From the NCBI GenBank assembly GCA_900315545.1, contig OMZM01000009.1, positions 1 to 64,000 of the forward strand: a stretch of DNA of 64,000 nucleotides, in the 5' to 3' direction. The notes beneath the pieces were generated by a model that had not been told where the DNA came from, did not search any database, and was given only the letters and a program-made list of their open reading frames with translations. Origin of the DNA: an uncultured Prevotella sp. (GTDB taxonomy: Bacteria; Bacteroidota; Bacteroidia; Bacteroidales; Bacteroidaceae). Below are positions 1-46,928 of this stretch, piece after piece. The translations under genes and the position numbers were made by a program. How positions within the stretch are numbered: the stretch's first letter is position 1; each line of letters opens with the position of its first letter.

Positions 1-286
1 TTGTCAAAGAGCATGTTTGACATTGTCAAACACACTGTTTGAGGATGCCAAACATAGTGTTTGGGACTCTCAGACACAATGTTTCGCAAGCCAAAATACA
101 CAAATAAGCGCCTCAAACATACTCTTTGACAATATTAACAATTACATTTAACCTCAAAATTAACACAACTTTGCATTTTCAGAGGCTATTCCGTTTCTAT
201 TTGGAGAGTTTTTCTCTGTCAAAATTTTTCATCATTTTCCGCCCTCAGACAAAAATCCGTTCACTTTGGCACAGTTTTTGTAGGCA
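1..286 (+). repeat. Copy A of the 437-bp phased-palindrome element (left part outside window)
   Basis: Only the right two thirds of this copy is in the window; the first base falls 3 nt before palindrome unit 1. Units of 17 bp lie at 4-20, 26-42, 48-64, 70-86, 92-108 and 113-129, with 5-nt spacers except one of 4 nt before the last unit. Unit 2 (TCAAACACACTGTTTGA) is identical in all four copies. Unit 3 differs from copy B at both outermost positions symmetrically (T to C on the left, A to G on the right), so the symmetry is kept. After a 137-nt gap comes the sigma-54-like box at 267-282. This is the most diverged copy. It lies upstream of prfC in the same orientation. Confidence 0.9.
267..282 (+). 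promoter_or_regulatory. Sigma-54-like box in element copy A
   Basis: TGGCACAGTTTTTGTA fits the -24/-12 layout TGGCAC-N5-TTGCW except that the -12 GC reads GT. The surrounding 26-nt spacer is poorly conserved between copies while this box is kept. Function is inferred from sequence resemblance only. Confidence 0.4.
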
Positions 287-373
287 TGGCAAAGGTCTAC
301 CAAAAACTACATGTCCCAATGTGCATTACTCAAGGATAAATATGCTGCACATGCTCGGAAATAACCAAATAAA

Positions 374-406
374 TTTGGTATTTCTCTCGCTTAATCGTAC
401 CTTTGC
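374..406 (+). promoter_or_regulatory. Housekeeping promoter of prfC
   Basis: A TTTG (-33) at 374-377 is followed after 20 nt by TACCTTTGC (-7) at 398-406, the Bacteroidota primary-sigma consensus. Transcription would start near 413, about 18 nt before the start codon. Confidence 0.75.
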
Positions 407-430
407 AGCCGCAAAAAGAATACAGAGACT

Positions 431-2017
431 ATGAATCAAGAGATAGAACGCAGAAGGACGTTTGCCATCATCAGCCACCCTGATGCTGGTAAGACTACAC
501 TGACTGAGAAATTCCTGCTTTTCGGCGGACAGATACAGGTGGCTGGAGCCGTGAAAAACAACAAGATAAAGAAGACGGCTACGAGCGACTGGATGGACAT
601 AGAGAAGCAACGCGGCATCTCGGTGTCGACGTCGGTGATGGAGTTTGACTATACTCCCGAAGGCGGCGACACGGAATATAAGGTGAACATCCTCGACACT
701 CCGGGACATCAGGACTTTGCCGAAGACACATACCGCACGCTGACAGCTGTCGACTCTGCCATCATCGTGGTGGACGGTGCAAAGGGTGTGGAGACGCAGA
801 CGCGCAAGCTGATGAACGTGTGCCGCATGCGCAACACGCCGGTGATAATCTTTATCAACAAGATGGACCGCGAGGGACGCGACCCGTTCGACTTGCTCGA
901 CGAACTGGAACAGGAGTTGCAAATCAGCGTGCGTCCGCTCTCATGGCCTATAAATCAGGGAGCAAAGTTCAAGGGAGTATATAATATCTACGAGGAAAAG
1001 CTCGACCTCTTCACTCCCGACAAGCAGCGTGTTACCGAAAAGGTGGAGATAGACATCAAGAGTAGCGACCTTGACGAGCAGGTGGGTGCCGACAATGCTG
1101 CCCAACTGCGCAACGACCTCGAGCTGATAGACGGCGTCTACCCTGAATTCAATGTTGACGACTATCGCGCTGCTACCGTTGCACCTGTATTCTTTGGCTC
1201 TGCGCTCAACAACTTCGGCGTGCAGGAATTGCTCAACTGCTTTGTAGAGATTGCACCTTCGCCACGCCCAACGATGGCAGAGGAGCGCACTGTGGAGCCG
1301 GAAGAAAAGAAATTCAGCGGATTTATCTTCAAGATAACAGCCAACATCGACCCCAACCACCGCTCGTGCATAGCCTTCTGCAAGGTGTGCAGCGGCAAGT
1401 TCCAGCGCAACCAGCCCTATCTGCACGTCCGACAGGGCAAGACTCTGCGCTTCTCGTCGCCTACGCAGTTCATGGCGCAGCGCAAGTCGACCATCGACGA
1501 GGCTTGGCCAGGCGACATCGTGGGACTGCCGGACAACGGAATATTCAAGATTGGCGACACGCTGACCGAAGGCGAACAGCTGCATTTCAGAGGTCTGCCG
1601 TCGTTCTCGCCTGAGATGTTCAAGTATATTGAGAACGACGACCCGATGAAGTCGAAGCAGCTGAACAAGGGTATAGACCAGCTGATGGACGAGGGTGTGG
1701 CTCAGATGTTCGTCAACCAGTTTAACGGAAGAAAGATTATCGGAACGGTGGGACAGTTGCAGTTTGAGGTTATACAGTACAGACTTGAGAACGAATACAA
1801 CGCCAAATGCCGCTGGGAGCCCGTACACCTGTACAAGGCTTGCTGGATAGAGAGCGACGACGAAAAGGAACTGGAAAACTTCAAGAAGCGCAAGTATCAG
1901 TACATGGCAAAGGATAAGGACGGGCGCGATGTTTTCCTTGCCGACTCAGGCTACGTATTGCAGATGGCACAGCAGGATTTCGAACATATAAAGTTCCATT
2001 TCACGAGCGAGTTTTAG
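431..2017 (+). CDS. prfC: Peptide chain release factor 3 (RF3)
   Basis: RF3 is a ribosome-bound GTPase that recycles RF1 and RF2 from terminating ribosomes. The 528-residue product has the family length (E. coli RF3 is 529). The G domain shows HPDAGKTT near residue 16 (P-loop), [12 protein letters not shown] near 90 (switch II) and NKMDRE near 142. The RF3 C-terminal domain follows and ends in the usual [14 protein letters not shown] tail. The ATG lies 25 nt after a clean TACCTTTGC promoter. Its last 4 bases overlap the end of the convergent UpxY gene, so the two transcripts have complementary 3' ends. Copy A of the 437-bp element lies upstream in the same orientation. The identification is secure. 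Confidence 0.97.
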
Positions 2018-2568
2018 GGTTTCACTACCGGCTTGCAACACCAGCGCGACACCTTTATCATGACACCCATGCCCGGCACTTCCTTCAGCAGGTAGTATTT
2101 GTGGCTCTGTCTGACGAGCTTGCCGCTCAATCCTTTCAGCGGTCCATGCTCGACAACTACCTTCGTGCCTGCTTTCAGGCGTGCCTCATCGGCAGAAAGG
2201 TATTTGCGCAACTCTATTTCGGGATTGCACATTATCTGGAACTCGCGCATCTCGCTGCTCGAAATCTCGTAGAACTTAGTAGCATCATGAGCTTTCCGAA
2301 ACACTTTCATGGGTATGTTGCTTTCGCGGACCATGTCGGCAAAGACTTTCTCTGCCACCGTCTTTTTCACAAAAATAAGATTTCTGACCACCGGACGCAA
2401 CTCGCTTTTCTGCTTCCCCTCACCGTCTTCGAACCTGACATACTCCTTAGGAATATAGGTTTCCATGCCTTTCTCATCGAAAAAGGCATCAGCCTCCTGC
2501 TGCCGCTTGGTGAAAAGTTGCAGGGCATACCATGTTTCGCCTGAAAAATCCTGACTTGTAGGATGCAT
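2014..2568 (-). CDS. UpxY-family NusG-like transcription antiterminator
   Basis: The 184 residues form an N-terminal NGN domain (starting around [15 protein letters not shown], residues 13-27) and a C-terminal KOW-type segment ([17 protein letters not shown] near 137). This is the layout of UpxY and RfaH-like NusG paralogues, which ride on RNA polymerase and prevent early termination in long operons. In Bacteroides such genes normally head capsular polysaccharide operons. Here it is the last gene of the TrpF-like/thioesterase operon and is followed by prfC on the other strand, so no polysaccharide operon sits behind it. Either it acts in trans or it controls something other than capsule. The family call is firm; the target is unknown. 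Confidence 0.85.
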
Positions 2569-2589
2569 CTATATACCTTATTAATATAA

Positions 2590-46006: not shown

Positions 46007-46015
46007 GCAAAGGTA
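46007..46015 (-). promoter_or_regulatory. -7 element of the CCA nucleotidyltransferase gene
   Basis: TACCTTTGC on the minus strand. It places the transcript start downstream of the longer ORF start, which fixes the start codon at 45978. Confidence 0.7.
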
Positions 46016-46144
46016 TGTTTTTTTTGCGTAACGTGCAAATATTTGACTGTTTAGGTTACTTTTTTTGGCAAAGGTACGGTCAAGAAATGATGGGTGAAAA
46101 GACAGTTTAACACAGGTCATGGATAAAAAGCGGTAGAAATTTCG

Positions 46145-46153
46145 TACCTTTGC
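46145..46153 (+). promoter_or_regulatory. -7 element of the 64-residue membrane protein gene
   Basis: TACCTTTGC, 35 nt before the ATG at 46189. An upstream in-frame start at 46150 lies inside the promoter and is excluded. Confidence 0.6.
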
Positions 46154-46188
46154 AGGCAGATAAATCGGAATTTAACAGTCACAAGAAT

Positions 46189-46383
46189 ATGAAAAAAAGA
46201 AATATAGTCTCTTTGTTGATGTTATTGGTGAGTGTTGTTTGTTTTTTTTTGTGTAAAGTTCTAAGTAGCATTTTCATCGAGGTTGTATGGCGTGATAAGT
46301 TTAACATAGCCATTCTTATGTTCTTCCTTTTTATTGGTGGTCTCATATTACTGGCATTATCTATAATGCGTTTACTCAAATAG
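46189..46383 (+). CDS. Small two-helix membrane protein, 64 residues
   Basis: Begins MKKRNIVSLLMLLVSVVCFF and has two strongly hydrophobic segments (about residues 7-28 and 39-60) with a short charged loop (EVVWRDKFN) between them; the C terminus is basic. A clear promoter and a proper start support it as a real gene. No family was recognised; small two-helix proteins of this type are often modulators of larger membrane complexes. The 657 nt that follow hold element copy D and the DUF1599 promoter. Confidence 0.65.
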   Translation: MKKRNIVSLLMLLVSVVCFFLCKVLSSIFIEVVWRDKFNIAILMFFLFIGGLILLALSIMRLLK

Positions 46384-46486
46384 ATTTTCAAACACAAATT
46401 CCAATTTAACGAAATATATAAAAATAAGTTGGTATGTTTTGCAAAGCAGGACTATGTTTCGCAAGAAATAATACTAATCATTTTTC

Positions 46487-46928
46487 GGCTCGTTTACTGC
46501 CGCGTGAGTGCCCTCGAAAGTCATTTTGAAAATCGCAGGGGCAAAATATGCCCAAAATTCGCATGATACCATAATCCTTTGGCCATCAGATTATTAACCA
46601 CAAATATAAGCGTTTTATGCAGGAAACATAAGTGTTAAAATTGTCAAAGAGCATGTTTGAGATTGTCAAACACACTGTTTGAGGCGGTCAGACATAGTGT
46701 TTGGGGGTATCAGGCATTGTGTTTTGCAGGGCAAAACAGGTGAAACAGGAGCCTCAAAGATACTCTTTGACATTTTTAACAGTTGTGTCTGGTCTTGAAA
46801 TTAACGGTTTTTTGCACTTTCAGGGGCTGTAAATTTTCTATTTGGAGAGTTTTCCTCTGTCAAAAGTTTTCATAATTTTCGGGGTCGGCAGGGAAGGCGC
46901 GAACAGTTTGGCACGGTTTTTGTAGGAC
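46487..46928 (+). repeat. Copy D of the 437-bp phased-palindrome element
   Basis: Complete copy, one base longer than B and C. Units at 46644-46660, 46666-46682, 46688-46704, 46710-46726, 46732-46748 and 46754-46770 keep the exact 22-bp period. The gap to the box at 46909-46924 is 138 nt. The downstream block has an in-frame stop where copies A-C are open, which argues that the element is not protein-coding. It precedes the DUF1599 gene in the same orientation. Confidence 0.92.
46909..46924 (+). promoter_or_regulatory. Sigma-54-like box in element copy D
   Basis: TGGCACGGTTTTTGTA, identical to copy C although the flanking 27 nt are quite different. Confidence 0.4.

Follow-up and report, generated by a model that had tools for sequence, protein, structure and literature searches.

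The window analysed here, a stretch of 64,000 nucleotides from an uncultured Prevotella sp. (contig OMZM01000009.1, positions 1 to 64,000), contains four copies of a dispersed element and one further array of palindromes that lies outside them (Table 1). The element consists of two arms flanking a central array of six 17-bp units, placed at a step of 22 bp, and carries a sigma54-type box at its right end. The further array belongs to a second class that was absent from the original prediction; it has no element arms and is located between convergent predicted genes. The closest relatives of a gene adjoining the element are Prevotella and Prevotellaceae records. Collectively, such arrays and the genes of the protein family DUF6078 (PF19555) point to an undescribed protein–DNA system that may organise chromosomes.

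Table 1. Element copies and the additional array in the window
Feature	Position	Strand	Remarks
Element copy A	1..285	+	Cut by contig end; array 4-129; sigma54-type box 265-280
Element copy B	24338..24789	+	Six-unit array 24507-24633; sigma54-type box 24769-24784
Element copy C	33814..34266	-	Six-unit array 33971-34097; sigma54-type box 33820-33835
Element copy D	46474..46926	+	Six-unit array 46644-46770; sigma54-type box 46907-46922
Second-class array	9971..10053		Four 17-bp palindromes of TTACA-N7-TGTAA type, 22-bp step

Architecture of the element

The original prediction described four copies of an element of 437 bp with nearly fixed dimensions, and all four were confirmed in place. With the units taken on the 22-bp register, unit 2 is identical in the four window copies (TCAAACACACTGTTTGA), unit 5 is non-palindromic and copy A is one base short, as had been read. 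The distance from unit 1 to the box is 262 bp in copies B and C, 263 bp in D, and 261 bp in A. The element is longer than 437 bp: conservation begins ~12 bp further left, at TAATCAATTTT, and the ends set by a profile from 30 copies give a length of ~455 bp.

Reading of the copies places the six units in a central segment of 149 bp, bounded by TGTTAAAAwTGTCAAAGAG and its inverted copy and flanked by arms of ~157 and ~124 bp. In the 2.29-Mb Prevotella-like genome to which the window belongs, this 19-bp inverted repeat has 274 sites (138 + 136) at no more than one mismatch, and the control has none. Since each copy holds two such sites, the genome contains ~137 element copies; given also the second array class and the arrays found in many congeners, the family of four copies first proposed was an understatement. 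End-to-end matching recovered 93 copies, of which 87 could be measured; a contig end truncates one of the remaining six, and the other five belong to a different type. All 87 span 429–432 bp from the left end to the box and have an array of 148–149 bp, and the unit 1-to-box distance is 261–263 bp in 86 of these 87 type I copies. The columns of the box and the array are near-invariant, while many other columns vary strongly (major base 30–60%), which suggests a constraint acting on each copy or on its source.

Two variants share parts of this plan. Type II copies (L198, L199, L202, L206, and others) have the common array with different ends and no box; their ends, judged by eye, show a weak mutual likeness. 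Type III copies (L120, L132, L162, L171, L190, and L194) have the arms and box of type I. In these six, as inspected, units 1–4 are TTACA-N7-TGTAA rather than TCAAA-N7-TTTGA, followed by a degenerate unit 5 and a unit 6 that is still of the TCAAA type, all in register. The five that were measured retain the unit 1-to-box distance of type I (262 bp), and their left arm is exactly 22 bp shorter. Loss of a unit was considered and rejected, as six units are present and it is the arm that is shorter. The recognition letters can thus be exchanged on a scaffold of unchanged geometry.

One copy (L185:1696-2182) carries a duplicated stretch of ~35 bp in its array, off the 22-bp step. Many contigs of the assembly (G000; e.g., C2, C12, C16, C17, C18, C21, C22, C36, and C56) start or stop within or beside the element; the assembly seems to break there.

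The right end of the element, TTTGGCACRGTTTTTGCW, corresponds to a consensus sigma54 −24/−12 promoter. As the TGGCAC-N5-TTGC core is present and RpoN is encoded in the genome, a promoter is predicted at this site. The strict pattern TTGGCACRNNNNTTGCW has 49 + 49 matches in the window's genome, with a control of 0 + 0, and 0–4 matches in each of 23 other genomes, with a control of 0–1 per strand. Among the 27 matches listed outside the window's genome, 24 were examined, and 18 of these precede chaperone-like genes, the names of which (htpG, clp-like, dnaK, groES, grpE, and trx) were assigned by reading N-termini. These sites are at L235, L236, L237, L238, L239, L241, L242, L243, L244, L248, L251, L252, L253, L256, L259, L260, L261, and L263. 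This agrees with the sigma54 control of chaperone genes published for Bacteroidota (PMC12316311); those promoters are of the same −24/−12 type as the right end of the element, whereas here the predicted promoter rides on a dispersed element in random orientation. Three exact sigma54-type boxes stand without the element (L127:1056, L126:3658, and L175:3430), and runs of the AACGGGAACG type come after the first two.

It might be supposed that the array is the activator site of a single enhancer-binding protein and that the element is a portable sigma54 promoter. The box counts, the fixed distance from array to box, and the presence in the genome of a single clear RpoN and, among four matches, a single clear enhancer-binding protein are consistent with this; a weak second sigma54-domain match is explained, in our reading, by an IS30-like transposase. 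However, the second-class arrays and those type II copies that were read have no box, and neither TCAAA-N7-TTTGA nor TTACA-N7-TGTAA occurs in any of 18 regions of 320 bp upstream of the congeners' sigma54 promoters. The direction relative to genes, which is random, also speaks against it: in a table of 122 rows, some of them split or antisense, 101 type I rows have a gene on the box side, and the box points towards its start codon in 59 and its stop codon in 42 (P 0.11); for the head of the element, start codons account for 54 of 91 (P 0.09). The box as a promoter of the adjacent gene was accordingly rejected as a rule, and the sigma54-enhancer explanation as a whole appears improbable. Random orientation towards genes had been named beforehand as favouring a plain mobile repeat, and it is what was found.

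The 22-bp step and the chromosomal lattice

A sequence-blind scan for arrays of at least four palindromes, covering 849.5 kb in six contigs of the window's genome, returned 38 arrays at a step of 22 bp and none at 20, 21, 23, or 24 bp. Matches were also returned at steps 11 and 33, which we take to be half-step registers of the same arrays. The 38 arrays comprise 29 known elements and nine new arrays of the TTACA type without arms; a tenth second-class array was found by a motif scan. The second-class arrays align with one another inside the array only, except for one pair whose alignment extends ~50 bp beyond. The period is retained in diverged copies, where its loss would have favoured a plain mobile repeat.

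The 59 elements and 10 second-class arrays are interleaved on these 849.5 kb in an evenly spaced lattice. The 63 gaps have a mean of 12.4 kb, a standard deviation of 4.6 kb, a coefficient of variation (CV) of 0.37, and a minimum of 5.6 kb. Under uniform placement, the CV is 0.93 and 21 gaps are below 5 kb (least 9 in 5000 draws); restriction to predicted intergenic places gives 0.87 and 20 gaps (least 8 in 5000). None of the 10 second-class arrays comes closer than 5.6 kb to an element (P printed as 0.0000 over 20,000 draws; for the mean distance, P 0.02). Divergent or convergent gaps hold 39 of the 62 assigned arrays, compared with 90 of 266 array-free gaps being of these kinds (P 4e-5), and convergent gaps alone hold 19 of the 62; genes were called by our own script, and 7 of the 69 arrays could not be assigned to a gap. 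A minimum distance that holds across two codes, with or without mobile-looking arms, suggests a role of chromosomal position.

The main rival explanation is a transposon-like element whose array binds the transposition machinery, with the even spacing produced by target immunity of the Tn7 or Mu type. Its ~137 dispersed copies, their random orientation, and their location between genes fit this, and immunity predicts a minimum distance. So does the distribution within the genus: the full element was found in none of the other 398 of 399 genomes, with two candidates scored per genome, and a smaller scan of 40 genomes with up to 16 candidates scored in each gave the same outcome. On the other hand, the array is central rather than terminal, and neither target duplications nor terminal repeats were apparent by eye in the 40 flank pairs inspected out of 86. 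Some columns are conserved and others freely variable, and the second-class arrays keep the same spacing with neither arms nor ends; an even spacing common to two array classes does not fit a plain mobile repeat. We hold a transposon with target immunity to be a minor possibility.

Arrays, as distinct from the full element, occur in other genomes of the genus. A two-unit TTACA pattern (at most two mismatches) is present in 86 of the 399 genomes, including that of the window, and 28 have at least four matches; control matches are mostly zero and at most 4. Blind scans of stretches revealed step-22 arrays with two codes in G326, G144, and G395 and arrays of a TAAAAG type in G202, and other steps gave 0–2 matches each in G144, G395, and G202. 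The 160 kb scanned of G016 had no array. One congener (G005) has a half copy of the element only (L214:1853-2029), a remnant in which the box spacing is one base longer. In three congeners (L292, L293, and L294), a TTACA-type array lies between what we read as the same NqrA-like and NqrB-like genes; array positions can thus be kept between species.

Linkage of arrays to DUF6078 genes

Two arrays were first seen just past a DUF6078 gene. The family, which Pfam lists as of unknown function, has ~145 residues and four invariant cysteines in 48 sequences, and we read its C-terminal half as resembling a helix-turn-helix. Four DUF6078 proteins matched no family in PADLOC or PHROGs, and a comparison with PDB sequences gave one match at chance level. 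Among the 48 members, three have weak, non-significant Pfam matches to WhiB and one to HTH_19. In a search of the open-access literature, neither DUF6078 nor arrays of this kind were found described.

DUF6078 occurs in 240 of the 399 genus genomes. It is present in 25 of the 28 genomes with at least four TTACA pair matches and in 215 of the 371 others (P 0.001), a cut that was chosen after the counts had been seen. For a direct test of adjacency, 67 DUF6078 loci were used, which are not independent: the top 30 by score in the genus scan, 20 from congeners chosen largely for their abundance of arrays, L286, L298, and the window genome's own L355, nine from other genera or families, and five records labelled as plasmid or phage. 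In 35 of the 67, a three-unit array at step 22 lay no more than 300 bp away (27 on the 3′ side and 8 on the 5′ side). Other steps gave 0–3 of 67 and shuffles 0.4 of 67; control genes of G016 gave 0 of 91, a mild control, as that genome has no DUF6078 and no arrays in the 160 kb seen. At L286, L298, and L389, the array was known beforehand, and without these three the count is 32 of 64. When whole loci were compared, an array was present in 30 of 62 DUF6078 loci; among 106 control loci, five had one, and three or more of these look real.

In the window's genome, a TTACA array follows the stop codon of the single DUF6078 gene (L355:1501-1917; 108 bits). DUF6078 also occurs in seven records labelled as plasmid or phage; in all five that were read, a 22-bp array follows the gene, four of them also by script. 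This arrangement is seen in records of Bacteroides finegoldii, Parabacteroides distasonis, and Treponema saccharophilum (pTS1). The letters vary from gene to gene (TTACA, TGGTA, GTTTC, TGAGAC, TTCCA, GTACG, CGGAC, TGCCA, and more), as does the unit width, but the step is constant at 22. Many DUF6078 gene copies thus appear to carry their own code alongside, which would make protein–DNA specificity readable from sequence pairs.

These results bear on the earlier proposal that protein is bound along one face of the DNA. It finds support, short of demonstration, in the recurrence of step 22 in arrays of unrelated letters, in other families and in one other phylum, in a symmetry that is DNA-level where the coding strand is known, and in a protein family linked to the arrays.

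Proposed system and its relation to known systems

We see an even chance that DUF6078 proteins bind the arrays, each with its own code, and that the dispersed arrays form a lattice on the chromosome, which is the best-supported reading. What is shown comprises the arrays with their constant step, the change of code with the scaffold retained, the even spacing, and the linkage to DUF6078 genes; binding, dimer formation, and looping are inferred. A dimer of the family would occupy each palindrome of ~16–18 bp, and the step of 22 bp, corresponding to two helical turns, would set the dimers on one face for cooperative binding. Each array-bearing DUF6078 gene has its own code, with a home array adjoining it, mostly within ~130 bp past the stop codon and perhaps serving autoregulation. 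Arrays of this kind also recur in the intergenic gaps of some genomes every ~10–12 kb or more, and the bound protein would bridge, insulate, or anchor the DNA, dividing the chromosome into loops. In the genome of the window, most lattice points are carried by the element with its predicted outward sigma54 promoter, the TCAAA-type arrays presumably using the same or a related protein. More tentatively, this may be an architectural system in which fast-changing DUF6078 codes and phased arrays every ~10–12 kb, mostly in divergent or convergent gaps, set loop or supercoil domains or mark self, with lattice points seeded by the element as their selfish or domesticated carrier.

Several observations weigh against DUF6078 proteins as the binders of a chromosomal lattice. 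No helix-turn-helix family in Pfam was significant in the 48 members. DUF6078 is missing from three of the 28 array-rich genomes, including G315, which is 99% complete, and the G016 control was lenient, as noted above. By script, 32 of the 67 loci have no array, mostly in one large subfamily, although an array was found at L331, L332, and L338 by an earlier scan and at L408 by eye. The TCAAA arrays have no known partner, as the only DUF6078 gene of this genome adjoins a TTACA array. The lattice is well measured in one genome; G395, G202, and G144 gave only 9, 7, and 3 gaps, of 6.6–27 kb except for one of 659 bp in G202 that probably involves a false array. Finally, mismatches in the element units are biased towards G-T (410, against 59 A-C, in copies that share ancestry), and in other genomes the direction of mismatch tends to be shared within an array (P 0.003; 60 of 72 arrays informative).

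The last two observations would suit shared ancestry or, alternatively, tandem RNA hairpins acting in transcripts. Hairpins should give an excess of G-U pairs over A-C mismatches on the coding strand, but the 21 arrays located 3′ of DUF6078 genes, one of which (L340) is probably false, have 22 G-T and 27 A-C mismatches on that strand. Moreover, arrays also lie 5′ of the gene (8 of 67) and in divergent gaps, and an Rfam search of six loci gave three matches at E ≤1 and none at the family cut-off. An overlap of the element with SMAD5-AS1_1 (E 0.75) was taken as chance. Outside the element, L198:1499-1595 weakly matches the Bacteroides small RNA family BTnc049 (45.6 bits, cut-off 81.9). RNA hairpins are thus very improbable, and a DNA-level site is favoured.

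Next after the transposon stands an ordinary regulon, in which DUF6078 acts as a transcription factor on operators of several sites and neighbouring genes are controlled by the dispersed arrays. The home arrays adjoining DUF6078 genes and the enrichment in divergent and convergent gaps agree with such a regulon. Nevertheless, arrays between convergent genes, a box and a head that do not significantly face start codons, and an even spacing that regulation does not predict make it unlikely.

In the prevailing view, topological domains of ~10 kb partition bacterial chromosomes, and we know of no sequence-defined, evenly spaced boundary elements in bacteria. The proposed DUF6078 system would offer a candidate boundary element that combines a DNA code open to reading with a constant mechanical step, a minimum-distance lattice, and a linked small protein family, and its code/protein pairs could also be tested in named Bacteroides and Parabacteroides species. 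Plasmid iteron origins, such as that of RK2, have 17-bp binding units at a step of ~22 bp, but these are direct repeats bound by a replication initiator at one origin, whereas the units described here are palindromes at many chromosomal places. The array of the element is central and differs from the transposase-binding arrays at the ends of Tn7- and Mu-type transposons.

The miniature inverted-repeat transposable element BrickBuilt of Porphyromonas gingivalis has 19 copies, contains 23-nt tandem units with no spacers, and shows promoter activity; its inverted-repeat ends most resemble IS5-family ISPg elements (PMC4596501). Like the present element, it is intergenic and dispersed in a member of the Bacteroidales and has an inner array of short units between a leader and a tail. 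In contrast, the units here are 17-bp palindromes with 5-nt spacers at a step of 22, with none at 23 in the blind scan, and the parts of the BrickBuilt account that we could consult contain no 22-bp palindromes, lattice, or DUF6078. In function, the proposed system would be closer to MatP/matS and SlmA, in which a sequence-specific protein marks or organises the chromosome through dispersed palindromic sites; 23 matS sites lie in Ter and 50 SlmA sites outside it, each a single site of 12–13 bp (PMC3116907). Those systems rely on single sites and one code per protein, whereas the arrays described here are phased and would have a code for each gene copy.

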